IMG/VR virus record: IMGVR_UViG_3300035142_000014
Location: 1 to 40,709 of that record
Origin: a virus
DNA: 40,709 nt
Strand: one strand, 5' to 3'
Shown: piece after piece, positions 23,243-37,878 of the stretch
How positions within the stretch are numbered: the stretch's first letter is position 1
Layout of the letters: each line of letters starts with the position of its first letter
Translations under genes and position numbers: made by a program
Notes under the pieces: model-generated
What the model was told of the DNA's origin: nothing
What the model saw: only the letters and a program-made list of their open reading frames with translations
The model's database searches: none

Positions 23243-23387
23243 GGCTCGCCGGAAACGCTACCGCTATCCCCGCATCTGCCCTCGCTGGCTGGTCTGCTAC
23301 GCCCTACATAATAGCGGCTACAATCCCCCACGCTGGTACTACCTCGTCCGATTATGCAAGCGATATCGTGCGCTTAAAGCCCTGTAG
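23166..23387 (+). CDS. Possible basic aromatic-rich small protein
   Basis: A 73-codon frame with GTG 23166 and a poor ribosome site. Its last ~48 codons lie in otherwise empty DNA, have GC-rich third positions, and code a Tyr/Arg/Trp-rich sequence (RYRYPRICPRWLVCYALHN). The codons before 23242 overlap another gene and may be shadow. Real start uncertain. Confidence 0.25.
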   Translation: MRWSPLRNSPLRRGAACAARGSGPNRARRKRYRYPRICPRWLVCYALHNSGYNPPRWYYLVRLCKRYRALKAL

Positions 23388-23488
23388 GTAGAAAAAGATA
23401 AAAAACTATTGACGTCGCAGGGGGTAGCGGTAACAAGATCCCTATGAGCGACGCACGAAACAACAACCACACGACGGAGGCAGGGAAC
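23388..23488 (+). promoter_or_regulatory. Early promoter region
   Basis: Short gap with an A-rich stretch (23391-23405), then TTGACG (23409-23414) followed by TCGCAG and, 16 bases after TTGACG, TAACAA as a weak -10. The A-run resembles an UP element. The TTGAC-R-TCGCAG string recurs at 26748-26759. It lies at the switch from lysis to accessory genes, so an early promoter is likely. An ATG at 23444 in the gap lacks a ribosome site. Confidence 0.5.
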
Positions 23489-23683
23489 ATGACGAAGCTC
23501 AACCGCAACCAGTATCGACCCCCCATCATGAACCTTCGCCCTTTCCGCAACTCTCGATTCTACACTGGCAAGCCCGCCCCATGGACCGACTTGTTCGATC
23601 GCCATATGTGGACCAGGCCTGAGGGCGAGAGGGGATACATTGCACAGCGACTCACGAAGCGGTTCTCGTTGGATGTGACCTAG
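23489..23683 (+). CDS. Small hypothetical protein, first early gene
   Basis: 64 residues from ATG 23489, chosen because GGAGG lies 8 bases upstream; the ATG at 23444 has no such site. Basic and aromatic (YRPPIMNLRPFRNSRFYTG). No family recognised. First gene behind the candidate early promoter. Confidence 0.5.
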   Translation: MTKLNRNQYRPPIMNLRPFRNSRFYTGKPAPWTDLFDRHMWTRPEGERGYIAQRLTKRFSLDVT

Positions 23684-23704
23684 CATTCCCCAAGCGTCTC
23701 GCCC

Positions 23705-23724
23705 GGTAAGCCGGCAGGCTTACC
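23705..23724 (+). other. Eight-bp hairpin with GGCA loop
   Basis: GGTAAGCC, loop GGCA, GGCTTACC: a perfect stem between two early genes. No T-run follows, so it is not an intrinsic terminator. It could be a processing or stabilising hairpin or an inverted-repeat protein site. Confidence 0.5.
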
Positions 23725-23750
23725 AGACGGGATGATAAGGGAGAGAGACC

Positions 23751-23933
23751 ATGAGGACGAAAATTGTCAAGCGAGCCACATACTCATCGACATGGACCGA
23801 GGCCTGGAAAACCGATGTTACGCCGCATTACAACCGCATCTGCGACAACATCGACCGCGTCGGTGGTAGCAGACACCGGTCTATAGCTCGTTCAATCTGG
23901 AGCAATCCCTATGAGAGCACCGCTCAGGATTGA
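23751..23933 (+). CDS. Small hypothetical protein
   Basis: 60 residues, ATG 23751 behind AGGGAGAGAG. Polar and basic (MRTKIVKRATYSSTWTEAW). Not recognised. Its end overlaps the next gene by 23 bases. Confidence 0.45.
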   Translation: MRTKIVKRATYSSTWTEAWKTDVTPHYNRICDNIDRVGGSRHRSIARSIWSNPYESTAQD

Positions 23934-24270
23934 GGATATCGGCTGGGGACGCAGGCGCAATGTCAACGCTGCGTGCAGGCTCATTGGTGAGCCAAACGCC
24001 ATCAAGTGCAACGCATGGGTTGCGCGCGTACGGATGTCTTGCGGGCGCATCGACCGCGAGTTCATCAAGCCCACATTCAACAACTCAAAGGCCAACGCGC
24101 CGCACACTCGCGGAGTCTACAAGTATTACTGGCTTGAGTGCGGTGATGGTTACGTGTACGAGGTATCTGCGCCGCTGTCCTGGCGCCGCGTGGATCGGTA
24201 CTTCTGCGTTGTGACCATCGACGGCGAAATCCAGCGTGTTGATGAGGAGTACGTGAGGGACTATGCCTAA
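23911..24270 (+). CDS. Hypothetical protein
   Basis: 119 residues. Two-part sequence: a basic N-terminal half with Cys (AACRLIGE, IKCNAWVARVRMSCGRID) and a beta-rich half (YKYYWLECGDGYVYEVSAPL, DRYFCVVTIDGEIQ). No family recognised. Overlaps the IbrA-like gene by 8 bases, so it may be cotranslated with that pair. Confidence 0.55.
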   Translation: MRAPLRIEDIGWGRRRNVNAACRLIGEPNAIKCNAWVARVRMSCGRIDREFIKPTFNNSKANAPHTRGVYKYYWLECGDGYVYEVSAPLSWRRVDRYFCVVTIDGEIQRVDEEYVRDYA

Positions 24271-25465
24271 GCGCGGACTGGGTATAGACGTGCTAACCGC
24301 AGCTCGTCAACGCATTGAGTGGACCTTTGACACGTTCCCGCGGATTTATCTGAGCTTCAGCGGCGGCAAGGACTCCTCCGTCATGATGCACCTTGTCTGC
24401 GCAGAGGCGCGGGCCAGGATGCGCCGCGTCGGTGTGCTTTTCGTGGATCTCGAGGGCCAATACAAACTGACGATCGACCACATCCAAGAGATGCTGGAGG
24501 AGTACCAGGATTGCATTGACCCTTACTGGGTGTGTCTTCCGCTGGCCCTGCGTAACGCCGTTTCGGTTTTCGAGCCCAGATGGCAATGCTGGAACCCGGA
24601 CAGATGCGCGGACTGGGTGCGAGAGCCGCCGGCCGGGGCCATCACGGATATGGGCGCCTTCCCGTTTTTCGAGCGCAATATGGAGTTCGAGGAGTTCGTG
24701 CCGCGTTTTGGCGAGTGGTACTCGCGCGGAAAACTCACGGCGTGCCTGGTTGGCATCCGGACGGACGAGAGTCTAAACCGATATCGGACGATCGCCAGCA
24801 AGCGCAAGCAGTCATTCGAGGGCCGACAGTGGACCACATACATTCAGGACGCCAAGACGGTTTACAACGTGTATCCGATCTACGACTGGCGCACGGAAGA
24901 CATCTGGACGTACAACGCGATGACCGGAGCGACGTACAACCGGCTCTATGACCGGATGTATCAGGCCGGGCTCGGCATCCATCAGCAGCGCATCTGCCAG
25001 CCCTATGGTGACGATCAGCGCAAGGGGCTGTGGCTGTTCCATGTCATCGAGCCCGAGACCTGGGCGCGCATCGTGGCGCGCGTCAACGGGGCCAATGGAG
25101 GCGCACTGTACTCGCAAGACAGCGGCAACATTCAGGGGATGCGAAAGATCACGCTTCCAGAAGGACACACCTGGGAGTCGTTTTCCAAGATGCTTCTGGG
25201 CTCGATGCCGGCCAAGACACGGGACCACTACGAGGATAAGATAGCCGTGTTCCTCAAGTGGTACGCCGACCGCGGATACCCGGACGGCATCCCAGACGAC
25301 GGACCTCTGGACAAGTCGGCGCCGAGCTGGAAGCGCATCTGCAAGACGCTTCTGCGTAATGACTACTGGTGCAAGGGGCTGAGCTTTACGCAAACCAAGA
25401 GCGACGCCTACGAAAACTATAAGCGCCTCATGAGGCGAAGGAGAGACGCATGGGGACTGATCTAG
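24263..25465 (+). CDS. IbrA-like PAPS-reductase family protein (DUF3440)
   Basis: 400 residues. Residues 33-39 are SGGKDSS, the PP-loop of N-type ATP pyrophosphatases that includes PAPS reductases, DndC and IbrA. The C-terminal half (HQQRICQPYGDDQRKGLWLF, ALYSQDSGNIQGMRKI, YWCKGLSFTQTKSDAYENYK) follows the DUF3440 pattern of IbrA. Several cysteines (QCWNPDRC, RICQ, WCKG) might bind a cluster. It sits directly before a ParB-like gene, the ibrAB arrangement. In E. coli IbrA/IbrB affects eib gene expression; the chemical reaction is not established. Here a nucleotide-activating role on DNA or RNA is plausible but unproven. Confidence 0.8.
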   Translation: MPKRGLGIDVLTAARQRIEWTFDTFPRIYLSFSGGKDSSVMMHLVCAEARARMRRVGVLFVDLEGQYKLTIDHIQEMLEEYQDCIDPYWVCLPLALRNAVSVFEPRWQCWNPDRCADWVREPPAGAITDMGAFPFFERNMEFEEFVPRFGEWYSRGKLTACLVGIRTDESLNRYRTIASKRKQSFEGRQWTTYIQDAKTVYNVYPIYDWRTEDIWTYNAMTGATYNRLYDRMYQAGLGIHQQRICQPYGDDQRKGLWLFHVIEPETWARIVARVNGANGGALYSQDSGNIQGMRKITLPEGHTWESFSKMLLGSMPAKTRDHYEDKIAVFLKWYADRGYPDGIPDDGPLDKSAPSWKRICKTLLRNDYWCKGLSFTQTKSDAYENYKRLMRRRRDAWGLI

Positions 25466-25968
25466 GCTGGACCAAGGATCACCCGGTGTCGCGGGTGCAG
25501 TGGGTCAAGACCGATCTAGTGCATGCCAACGACTACAACCCCAATCAGGTGGCGCCGCCAGAGATGGCGCTGCTCATGACGTCGATCGAGTCAGACGGGT
25601 ACACACAGCCTATCGTTGTGTGGGCTCTGGACGATGGAACCTATGAAGTAGTTGACGGCTTCCACCGCCATCTTGTGGGCCGCGAGCTGGGGCTAACCCA
25701 CCTCCCGGTTGTTGTCATCAACGATGAGCGCACGGACCGCGGCGACCGTATCGCAAGCACCATCCGGCACAACCGAGCCAGGGGCAAGCATCAGGTCGGG
25801 GCAATGAGCGAGATCGTGCAGGAGTTGGCCCGGCGAAATTGGTCAGACAAGAAGATAGGCAAGGAGCTCGGCATGGACCCCGATGAGGTGCTGCGACTCA
25901 AGCAGGTGACCGGGCTAGCTGAACTATTTGCAGACCGAGAGTTCTCGGAGGCATGGGAGGTCGAGTGA
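25450..25968 (+). CDS. IbrB-like ParB-domain protein
   Basis: 172 residues, ATG 25450 overlapping the IbrA-like gene by 16 bases. ParB/Srx-type fold: KTDLVHANDYNPNQ, VVDGFHRHLVGREL (residues 67-80, the ParB-box-like loop), RHNRARGKHQ, then an HTH-like part WSDKKIGKELGMDPDEVLRL. ParB-like domains can bind CTP or carry ATPase/nuclease activity, but no catalytic assignment can be made here. The tight pairing with the PAPS-reductase-like gene makes IbrB the best match. Confidence 0.75.
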   Translation: MGTDLGWTKDHPVSRVQWVKTDLVHANDYNPNQVAPPEMALLMTSIESDGYTQPIVVWALDDGTYEVVDGFHRHLVGRELGLTHLPVVVINDERTDRGDRIASTIRHNRARGKHQVGAMSEIVQELARRNWSDKKIGKELGMDPDEVLRLKQVTGLAELFADREFSEAWEVE

Positions 25969-26147
25969 TGCCCAAAAACCCCAAACTCAGCCACTCCACT
26001 GTTTGGATCCCCGTGGCCCTACGCGATCGGCTTAAGGTGCACTGCCTGGAGACCGGCATGAAGATGCGCGCGGTAGCCGAGCGGGCAATCCGGGAGTGGC
26101 TGGATCGCAATGCGCCCGACGACGGGCGGGAGAGGCATGAGGGATGA
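25968..26147 (+). CDS. Ribbon-helix-helix-like regulator
   Basis: 59 residues, ATG 25968 in a TGATG overlap with the ibrB-like gene. The pattern HSTVWIPVALRDRLKVHC (short strand then helix) and MRAVAERAIREWLDR (second helix) fits a ribbon-helix-helix DNA-binding dimer. Being cotranslated with ibrAB-like genes and close to the palindrome at 26362, it is a candidate autoregulator. Confidence 0.6.
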   Translation: MPKNPKLSHSTVWIPVALRDRLKVHCLETGMKMRAVAERAIREWLDRNAPDDGRERHEG

Positions 26148-26380
26148 GCGAGAATATCGGACGGGCGCGAGCAATCGAACGAAACGTCAGCGACTGCCCT
26201 AACTGTGGCGCGCCAGCCCTTGACGGCGGGGACGGGTGGATCTTGTGCAGTGCTCCTGGGGCGGAATGCACACTTAGGGCAGACCGGAAGACATGGGAAA
26301 GCCTGGCCAAGCTTCGCCATTCCTGCGATCTCGGCCAGGCCCCCGAAAAAGAGTTGACACGCTCCGACGAGTCGGAGTAG
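26144..26380 (+). CDS. Zinc-ribbon protein, Lar-like
   Basis: 78 residues. DCPNCGAPALDGGDGWILC and GAECTLRADRKTWESL give a C-x2-C ... C ... C zinc ribbon, similar to Lar-type restriction-alleviation or other small phage Zn proteins. The ATG overlaps the previous TGA. Its last codons contain the promoter -35 box and the 16-bp palindrome. Confidence 0.5.
   Translation: MSENIGRARAIERNVSDCPNCGAPALDGGDGWILCSAPGAECTLRADRKTWESLAKLRHSCDLGQAPEKELTRSDESE
26354..26359 (+). promoter_or_regulatory. Candidate -35 box TTGACA (second early promoter)
   Basis: Perfect consensus TTGACA preceded by AAAAAGAG, in the last codons of the Zn-ribbon gene. Eighteen bases later is TAGGTT, a weak -10 match. The spacer is almost filled by the perfect palindrome at 26362-26377, which is a typical repressed-promoter layout. 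The next gene begins at 26506. Confidence 0.5.
26362..26377. promoter_or_regulatory. Perfect palindrome, operator candidate
   Basis: CTCCGAC-GA-GTCGGAG, two perfect 7-bp arms, lies between a consensus -35 box and the likely -10 region. Suits binding of a dimer such as the RHH-like protein encoded at 25968-26147. It overlaps codons for the C-terminus of the preceding gene. Confidence 0.6.
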
Positions 26381-26430
26381 GTTGGACACTATCGTGATGC
26401 CCGAAACCAAGACATCCTAATTTTTCTGCT

Positions 26431-26477
26431 CGCGCCGGTGGTGGTCCTACCATGGGCATCACGACGCCACCGGCGCG
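26431..26477 (+). ncRNA. Long-stem hairpin in a 5' leader
   Basis: Perfect 11-bp arms (CGCGCCGGTGG at 26431-26441, CCACCGGCGCG at 26467-26477) enclose a 25-base loop, between the candidate promoter and the gene at 26506. No T-run follows it. May be a leader RNA structure or small regulatory RNA; a protein-binding inverted repeat is an alternative. Confidence 0.45.
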
Positions 26478-26505
26478 GGCACCTATTACCGCATGGAGCG
26501 TGACC

Positions 26506-35626: not shown

Positions 35627-37114
35627 GAAACCAAAGAGACGCTGAAGCCGTGCCCGATCTGCCACGGAGAATCCAAACGAGAAAACAACGGTTGGCTGTT
35701 TTGCTCGGACGCGGAATGCCCGATGGTGTCACTGCCTGAAAGCGCCTGGAATCGAATCCCACGCCAGTCCGCCGCATGGCGCGAGGTAGTGCGGGAGATG
35801 GCGCCGTATTGCTATGCCAATATGCCTATGCCCGATCGGTCGACTTTGAGCGGTTGGCGAACTCGCCTCAAGTCGTGCGCGCCGGGGACGGGAGAGGATG
35901 CGGAAGTGCTGGCGAGGGAGATTAGAGCCCGCGCCACAGCTCTAAAAACGCAGGGGTTGATAGAAACCGGGCAGGTTTTTGACAGGATCGCGGAGGATGT
36001 CAGCCGTCTCGTCCCCCAGCCGTCTGAGGATGCGGAGAAGCTGGCGAGGGATTTGGATCGGCTGGCATTTGAAGCGGCTGAAGGGGTTTCGCACCTCGAA
36101 AGACACATCAGTGGGCTTGCCGACCAAGCCCGCCGCCTCTCCCCGCAAGCGGAAGCGCCGGGAGAGGTGTGGGTTGCAGTGCGTCACAACGGGGATGGCT
36201 CGACTACGGCCCACGCATTTGCCTCTGGCGAAGACCTTGCAGTGTTCCTCGAGTCGCAAGAACACATGACAAGGTGTACAATCTACCGCGTCCCCGTCCA
36301 TGGCGCCCCGGACGTAGCGGACGAGATAGCGGAGAAGGCGGAAAACGCCATCCGAGAAATGCAAGAAGCCGCGCAGTCCGAGACGCACCCTGGGGATGCG
36401 CACTGGGATGAGCCGGACCGCCCCCCGTGGCGCGAAGAGGACGGGGAGTACAGGGCTGATTGGCGAGAGTTGAGGTTGGTAGTTAGACCATCCGGTGATG
36501 GCGAGCCGCTTAGTTTTTTCTGGTGTGTATCAAGCGGCATCCGACCGGCCGATCTTGCCTATGGATACAGTAGGCACGAACCAGAGGGTATGCACTGCGC
36601 AGAAGGCGCAGCCCGCGATTACTCCGAAACGAGGGAGGATGAGGATGCTTTTCAGAAACCCGAAGGTTTGGCCGATAGCCGTTTGCTGCCTCAAGCACAA
36701 ACTGGTGACGAAGGTAGTTCACCAATGGGAGGAAGCGCGCGTGAAATCAACGATGCGTTCCGAGAAGCAGCAGAGCAAGACGAACCGCACCCGGCCGAAG
36801 TAGCGCCCGACCCGGTGACCAGACTGCTTCGTGCCGCGTACCATGAAGCTCAGCGCATTGACTGGGCAGACGGCGAAGCACGGATAGCATTCGGGTTCAT
36901 TATCGACGCCATCTCCGCCCTACGCGACGAGGTGAGACGTGGCGGCGCGCTGGCTGAAGAACCGGACGAACCGGACGAAGCGGACGAAGTAACCGAGCTA
37001 GTCTCTGCCGGCCTACAGCAAATCGAAATCGCTGGTGGTAACATCGACCACCTAGGCGCAACACAGAAGGCGCTGCTGGCTGTTGCCGCACTGGCAAACA
37101 GGAAGCGCAGATGA
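35621..37114 (+). CDS. Large composite protein with Lar-like N-terminal zinc ribbon
   Basis: 497 codons from ATG 35621. Residues 1-45 are Lar-like (LKPCPICHGESKRENNG, FCSDAECPMVSLPESAWNRI), a C-x2-C ... C-x4-C ribbon seen in phage restriction-alleviation proteins. Residues 60-340 are helical/acidic with a segment RELRLVVRPSGDGEPLSFFW ... YGYSRHEPEGMHCAEGAARD that looks like the end of a separate protein. Between 36645 and 36803 coding sense moves to another frame, and normal sense resumes after ~36804 (RLLRAAYHEAQRIDWADGEA, EEPDEPDEADEVTELVSAG). The ORF may be two or three genes joined by loss of a stop. Confidence 0.5.
   Translation: MSETKETLKPCPICHGESKRENNGWLFCSDAECPMVSLPESAWNRIPRQSAAWREVVREMAPYCYANMPMPDRSTLSGWRTRLKSCAPGTGEDAEVLAREIRARATALKTQGLIETGQVFDRIAEDVSRLVPQPSEDAEKLARDLDRLAFEAAEGVSHLERHISGLADQARRLSPQAEAPGEVWVAVRHNGDGSTTAHAFASGEDLAVFLESQEHMTRCTIYRVPVHGAPDVADEIAEKAENAIREMQEAAQSETHPGDAHWDEPDRPPWREEDGEYRADWRELRLVVRPSGDGEPLSFFWCVSSGIRPADLAYGYSRHEPEGMHCAEGAARDYSETREDEDAFQKPEGLADSRLLPQAQTGDEGSSPMGGSAREINDAFREAAEQDEPHPAEVAPDPVTRLLRAAYHEAQRIDWADGEARIAFGFIIDAISALRDEVRRGGALAEEPDEPDEADEVTELVSAGLQQIEIAGGNIDHLGATQKALLAVAALANRKRR
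36645..36803 (+). CDS. Nested out-of-frame small protein
   Basis: 52 residues from ATG 36645, six bases after GAGGGAGG, in a different frame from the surrounding ORF. The product (MLFRNPKVWPIAVCCLKHKL...) is basic with a hydrophobic stretch. Third positions in this frame are clearly GC-rich while those of the host ORF drop to roughly 40% in the same interval, so this is probably the true gene here. A TGA at 36640-36642 in the frame one base back would have ended the upstream gene at this start. Confidence 0.5.
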   Translation: MLFRNPKVWPIAVCCLKHKLVTKVVHQWEEARVKSTMRSEKQQSKTNRTRPK

Positions 37115-37878
37115 TCTATACCGGCGACGGCTGGGAAATTCGTTGCGGGAGGTGGGAGTGCACCCCACCGGTCGACGTCGACTGCATTCTGAGTGACCCA
37201 CCGTACGATGAGCGAACCCACGTCAACGGGCGCTCTGGTGTTGGGTGGAGTGGGTACAGCAACCATCGCGCAATCTGCGTCAATGCGCCCAAGAGTTTCG
37301 ATCCGGTCGACCCGCGCGCCATCGGTCCAGAATTGGTGTTCTTGGCTCGTCGGTGGGCCGTGCTCTTCTGCTCAGTAGAGCAGATTGGACTGTATGCCGA
37401 GGCATGCGGGGACAAGTACATTCGCGCTGGGACATGGCTAAAGCGCGGGCCTACCCCGCAGTTCTCAGGAGATCGCCCGGCGGTGTGGGGCGACGGCGTC
37501 GTGTGCTTGCATCGTAAGGGCAAGAAGCGCTGGAACGGCGGCGGCAAGCCGCTTGTCCTCGACTACACCACCGTTGGGCGCAACAACTACGCCGGGGGTG
37601 GCGCTGGCACACGGCTACATGAGACCGAGAAGCCAGTTGCGATGATGATGGAGTTGGTTCACAAGTTCACGGATCCAGGCGAACTCATCTGGGATCCCTA
37701 CTGCGGCTCCGGCACCACCGGCGTTGCGTGTCTCAGGCTTGGCCGGCGCTTCGTAGGCCATGAGATGCAGCCGCACTACGCTGAGACCGCCGCAGAGCGC
37801 CTACAAGCCGAGCAACGGGGCCTGACACTTCAATCCGCCCGCGCTGGGCAGCGGAGTATTTTCGATGTCATTGAGTGA
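37111..37878 (+). CDS. DNA methyltransferase, beta-class (N6-adenine or N4-cytosine)
   Basis: 255 residues, ATG overlapping the previous TGA. Catalytic motif IV DPPY (29-32) comes first and SAM-binding motif I DPYCGSGTTG (195-204) near the end, the order of beta-class amino-methyltransferases. Between them KPLVLDYTTVGR and ETEKPVAMMMELVHKF are the usual linking segments. It can protect phage DNA from host restriction; no partner endonuclease is evident. Target sequence cannot be told. Confidence 0.9.
   Translation: MIYTGDGWEIRCGRWECTPPVDVDCILSDPPYDERTHVNGRSGVGWSGYSNHRAICVNAPKSFDPVDPRAIGPELVFLARRWAVLFCSVEQIGLYAEACGDKYIRAGTWLKRGPTPQFSGDRPAVWGDGVVCLHRKGKKRWNGGGKPLVLDYTTVGRNNYAGGGAGTRLHETEKPVAMMMELVHKFTDPGELIWDPYCGSGTTGVACLRLGRRFVGHEMQPHYAETAAERLQAEQRGLTLQSARAGQRSIFDVIE

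Follow-up and report, generated by a model that had tools for sequence, protein, structure and literature searches.

IbrA and IbrB form a protein pair that is common in phages, plasmids and E. coli, and the phage copies are often labelled as PAPS reductases, i.e. as sulfur-metabolism genes. IbrAB is reported (Sandt 2002) to switch on eib genes of prophages in the E. coli strain ECOR-9, which is the one effect described for it in the open-access literature. In E. coli K-12, the corresponding ybdNM operon is repressed by CitR (PMC9068703), and YbdM is up 29-fold with a resistance plasmid (PMC8764527). Surveys of phosphorothioation and BREX systems make no mention of IbrA, and cysH/PAPS reductase is named alongside phage auxiliary metabolic genes in a number of open-access papers. 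A first-pass annotation of the DNA analysed here regarded the chemistry of IbrAB as unresolved, in agreement with the open-access literature. Likewise composed of a PP-loop enzyme and a ParB-superfamily protein are DndC and DndB, of which DndC carries a dyad of conserved cysteines that serves in sulfur transfer (PMC10853773). In the DpdA/DpdB system, a base is inserted into DNA by a tRNA-modification-type enzyme together with a ParB-like ATPase (PMC12839542). The latter system is likened to IbrAB by description, and DpdA is a TGT, unlike the PP-loop protein IbrA.

The window, which is the whole stretch of viral DNA under analysis, has 40,709 bases. As terminase, portal, tail sheath, and tape measure are all encoded, it belongs to a sheathed tailed phage, and its 22-30 kb part has no megablast match among known phages. 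All features described between 23911 and 26147 lie on the plus strand. Three genes overlap in the order C1 (23911-24270), ibrA (24263-25465), and ibrB (25450-25968), with C1 overlapping the ibrA start by 8 nt and ibrA overlapping ibrB by 16 nt. The latter overlap recurs in many relatives, so it is not due to chance. The mobile-element IbrA/IbrB and K-12 YbdN/YbdM of E. coli are the same two proteins in the same order with the same overlap, to which the window IbrA is 47-54% and IbrB 56-59% identical. These E. coli pairs differ from the C1-IbrA-IbrB form of the window in having no adjacent C1, nor the alternative small protein C2 described below. Since enterobacterial ybdNM and plasmid ibrAB have neither, some versions of the pair can do without a third protein. 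The stretch at 23300-26500 has a G+C content of 0.58-0.60 versus 0.63 for the whole record, which is consistent with an acquired cassette. Elsewhere in the window, an N6/N4 DNA methyltransferase (37111-37878, Pfam 3.4e-21) is located in the replication region; hence, the phage already has one DNA-modifying enzyme.

IbrA is composed of a PP-loop/PAPS-reductase-fold domain (approximately residues 4-260) and a following DUF3440 part. Both exceed the Pfam cut-offs (PAPS_reduct, 2.6e-20, 73.6 bits, cut-off 22.5; DUF3440, 1.6e-35, 122.9 bits, cut-off 25), and the protein matches phrog_2302 (4e-87), which PHROGs places in auxiliary metabolic genes as PAPS reductase. Residue conservation was inspected in 96 non-redundant homologs cut at 70% identity. 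The ATP-pyrophosphatase motif SGGKDS (residues 33-38, 24359-24376) is kept in all 96, with S33, G35, K36, D37, and S38 being invariant. Invariance extends to D62, E64, R166, E169, S170, R173, D208, D213, R243, R273, G276, and D367. IbrA very probably has ATP-pyrophosphatase activity. A profile search places FAD synthase (1.9e-7) and CysD (1.6e-6) among its closest relatives of solved structure, with PAPS reductase ranking behind them. The predicted IbrA structure (pLDDT 89) aligns with the PAPS domain of FAD synthase (Z 16.0, rmsd 3.2, 170 residues aligned) and with CysD (Z 15.1, rmsd 3.1, 171 residues aligned); the APS/PAPS reductases (Z 15.5-15.7) tie with FAD synthase. This comparison is informative up to approximately residue 265, and the part beyond is barely covered. 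FAD synthase and CysD transfer AMP. As they share the fold and the ATP motif with IbrA, we infer that IbrA adenylates its substrate. Different from these two enzymes, IbrA carries DUF3440 in addition and is almost always accompanied by a ParB-like partner.

This partner, IbrB, is composed of a ParB/Srx-like domain and a C-terminal part (Pfam ParB_N, 1.7e-9; phrog_2159, 1.5e-64), and the first-pass annotation had identified both members of the pair correctly. IbrB adjoins IbrA at 233 of 238 phage and bacterial loci, and two of the other five are at or near contig ends. Two motifs are nearly constant in these 233 sequences. The first one is DGFHR in the window (residues 69-73, 25654-25668), which conforms to DG[FYH]HR in 232 sequences, and the other is TIRHNRARGKH (residues 104-114, 25759-25791), which conforms to T[IV]RHNxARGxH in 227. 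The GERR motif of ParB partition CTPases is present in none of the 233, and the score of IbrB against parB_part is 35.9 bits, below the cut-off of 58.45. SbnI/SerK serine kinases match only partially, around the DGxHR motif. Among the relatives of IbrB with the better scores is the ParB-like region found in DNA methyltransferases of phages (phrog_498, 3e-13; PADLOC MTase_II, 1.5e-7). It is mainly this resemblance that argues for a nucleic-acid substrate, and we put the chance that IbrAB targets nucleic acid at about even.

C1, a protein of 119 residues that the first-pass annotation overlooked, was located by clustering the ORFs neighbouring IbrA across the fetched loci. In the first scan, its homologs lie directly upstream of ibrA at 53 of 80 loci, and the C1/ibrA overlap is found at 61 of 64 loci. 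A tblastn search detects C1 in the same position in Chlorobiaceae phage CV-1-33 (1e-11). Of 36 family members, 31 match the uncharacterised phrog_26647, with the C1 of the window falling below threshold. The AF2 model of C1 (pLDDT 91) is beta-rich with a predicted beta-sandwich-like fold. Against solved structures, Foldseek returned no match at E ≤ 0.001 and the best VIA-align Z score of 4.5 was not above noise, which does not show that the fold is new; among viral structures, a single uncharacterised protein gave a match (E 2e-7). C1 also occurs as a tandem pair of copies upstream of ibrA (locus L002, 4096-5008). Two Streptomyces loci (L091 and L176) encode a far longer protein, with cysteine pairs resembling a zinc ribbon, whose C-terminal region is C1; the L091 module is beside casA of a type I-E CRISPR system.

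At 24 of the 80 first-scan loci, the slot of C1 is occupied by the unrelated C2, which is helical-looking by sequence. That C1 and C2 form a single family was rejected by an hhalign probability of 0.1%. We then counted both over 238 loci, which combine the 80 first-scan viral loci with those from a broader scan of viruses and a scan of bacterial genomes. The 158 viral loci comprise 60 with C1, 89 with C2, nine with neither, and none with both. Seven of them were the same contig fetched twice; after their removal, the 151 distinct viral contigs comprise 57 with C1, 85 with C2, nine with neither, and none with both. Hence 142 of these 151 contigs have C1 or C2 beside ibrA, in contrast to 8 of 80 bacterial loci. 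The difference between viruses and bacteria is strong (Fisher p = 4e-41), although this is no clean test because the viral and bacterial sets differ in distance from the query. The C2 counts are from a non-iterated profile, since the iterated profile drifted onto IbrB, likely because of real IbrB-C2 fusions. Such natural fusions number 14 ORFs, 13 of them distinct. In a separate scan started from C2 alone, every one of the 76 loci had IbrA or IbrB; at least ten of these loci were on already-seen contigs. Judged by the fusions and the C2-first scan, both of which are sequence evidence, C2 is part of the IbrAB machine. The scan from a closer C1 subset is a weaker test than that of C2, since it added just three new contigs, each of which has IbrA. 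One C2 protein, from Microcystis phage Mwe-JY13 (locus L083, 2549-2974), is annotated as ParB/sulfiredoxin in its record, which is probably a mislabel originating from the IbrB-C2 fusion family.

When the states C1, C2, and none are mapped onto a tree of 194 IbrA sequences (quick method, midpoint root), 10 changes are needed against a minimum of 2, so the third partner was swapped repeatedly. In the same tree, the YbdN clade of enterobacteria falls within the phage part. C1 distances track those of IbrA (0.62) more closely than those of IbrB (0.49), and so do C2 distances (0.56 vs 0.36), part of which is explained by shared inheritance. Taken together, a three-component unit in phages is well supported, and we hold it with good confidence. 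IbrAB was already known; as judged from open-access papers, the exchangeable third subunit appears to be new. As the third subunit and the IbrB-C2 fusion name the proteins to express together, the biochemical question on IbrAB becomes directly testable. For the phage form, testing IbrA and IbrB alone could overlook the activity.

Aside from C1 and C2, two accessory genes recur at the loci, neither of which is in the window. A GNAT-like gene is present at 44 of 238 loci, with or without C1/C2, and frequently separates ibrA from ibrB. Several GNAT-like proteins retain the acyl-CoA loop, and the clostridial ones look degenerate. An SNF2 helicase is present at 20 of 238 loci, mostly bacterial. In one case (locus L233, 22-636), the SNF2 helicase beside ibrA has a member of the GNAT-like family fused at its end.

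We propose that a C1-IbrA-IbrB complex acts on nucleic acid, most probably DNA, by adenylating and tailoring it, with the ParB-like IbrB positioning the enzyme, a proposal that falls just short of an even chance. Specifically, IbrA would use ATP to adenylate the substrate with release of PPi, working in the manner of the PP-loop/FAD-synthase/CysD group and neither by PAPS reduction nor by cysteine-based sulfur transfer. The ParB/Srx-fold IbrB would bind nucleotide and DNA and position IbrA. C1, or C2 in related phages, may attach to the complex as an exchangeable small subunit that probably sets the substrate or the site. The GNAT-like protein and the SNF2 helicase, added in some family members, would fit a DNA-acting tailoring pathway, and the co-activator effect in E. 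coli would follow from the modification. More tentatively, and with a lower probability, phage IbrAB may be the core of a previously undescribed nucleic-acid hypermodification machine, with an adenylating PP-loop enzyme, a ParB-type DNA-loading subunit, exchangeable specificity subunits C1/C2, and sometimes GNAT-like acylation. In broader terms, a role of IbrAB in nucleic-acid modification or anti-defence is plausible. Several points weigh against the model: the APS/PAPS reductases tie with FAD synthase in the fold comparison, two cysteines of IbrA are still common, the enterobacterial pairs do without C1 and C2, the clostridial GNAT-like proteins look degenerate, and neighbour-based inference in phages can mislead.

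The chemistry of IbrA bears on two readings that involve sulfur. As the phage copies are frequently annotated, IbrA would be a metabolic PAPS reductase (cysH) boosting host sulfur assimilation, in keeping with its PAPS_reduct domain and with the filing of phrog_2302. However, none of 243 IbrA sequences has ECGxH, the catalytic motif of PAPS reductases, the score against the CysH equivalog is 52.7 bits with a cut-off of 254.2, and ibrA is strictly linked to a ParB-like gene. PAPS reductase identity was rejected by the missing motif and the low score, and we find the metabolic reading scarcely credible; the conservation pattern makes the sulfur-metabolism label doubtful. The CC...CxxC pattern of APS reductases is likewise found in none of the 243. 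The other reading is a Dnd/Ssp-like phosphorothioation in which IbrA moves sulfur into the DNA backbone. The pairing of a PP-loop protein with a ParB-like partner recalls Dnd, as the first-pass annotation had pointed out, and DndC matches partially (PADLOC, 5e-8). At the level of mechanism, however, the parallel is unsupported, since IbrA scores 22.5 bits against the DndC equivalog (cut-off 290.4), the 96 homologs contain no invariant cysteine that could belong to a DndC-type dyad, and the solved structures closest to IbrA are those of adenylyltransferases and PAPS/APS reductases. The window proteins scanned include none resembling DndA, DndD, or DndE. Phosphorothioation is thus very improbable, though a shade less so than the metabolic reading, and in general IbrA is unlikely to be a literal PAPS reductase or a Dnd-type enzyme. 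Cys245 (24995-24997) and Cys370 (25370-25372) are common but not obligate, being kept in 84 and 86 of the 96 homologs, respectively, and two homologs (L088 and L090) have neither. This disfavours any obligatory sulfur-transfer step of the Fe-S or persulfide type. Because both cysteines are still common, a sulfur role in the IbrA subfamily of the window is possible.

Two further readings concern transcription and defence. IbrAB may be a transcription co-activator that switches on phage or host genes without nucleic-acid modification, with IbrB binding DNA or a regulator and IbrA adenylating or assisting a protein partner. Gene expression is the sole phenotype reported (eib activation in ECOR-9, as reported by Sandt 2002), IbrB is ParB-like, and K-12 ybdNM are themselves under CitR (PMC9068703). 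This reading leaves unexplained why the ATP-pyrophosphatase site is kept in 96 of 96 homologs and why GNAT and helicase genes are linked, and we consider it rather unlikely, albeit the most serious rival of nucleic-acid tailoring. Alternatively, IbrAB may serve defence or inter-phage exclusion, with C1 and C2 as exchangeable sensors and the helicase and the GNAT-like protein as effectors. Exchange of small partners and SNF2 helicases are typical of conflict systems. IbrAB shows modular exchange of its small partners and linked SNF2 helicases, and is spread widely on mobile elements (216 of 50,697 phage and 679 of 72,556 plasmid records). Nevertheless, no nuclease or known toxin family is recurrent among the IbrAB neighbours, and the three proteins of the window have only weak PADLOC matches. 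A defence function is improbable on this balance, and tailoring of nucleic acid by the C1-IbrA-IbrB complex is the reading we prefer.

Adjacent to the conserved unit is a small ORF (25953-26147), which the first-pass annotation had called ribbon-helix-helix (RHH)-like and had joined to IbrA and IbrB. The three ORFs are positioned exactly as it gave them and do overlap in series. The ORF likely starts at 25968, where an ATG and the ibrB stop share the sequence TGATG, preceded by GGAGG. Its resemblance to RHH proteins is weak, with a best Pfam E value of 0.0024 (18.5 bits, below the cut-off of 27) and an Arc-like phrog_582 match of 0.04, and by sequence it is possibly a diverged RHH. The unit as first annotated holds for IbrA and IbrB. 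As a conserved member, the RHH gene was rejected, since no homolog is detectable in 80 IbrAB viral loci, all of which have IbrB. In relatives, the slot after ibrB is occupied by other, unrelated small proteins. One locus without C1 and C2 (L035) has a second PP-loop protein with SGGKDS directly after ibrB, and another (L061) has, by eye only, a protein with a CxxxCxxC radical-SAM-like motif after ibrB.
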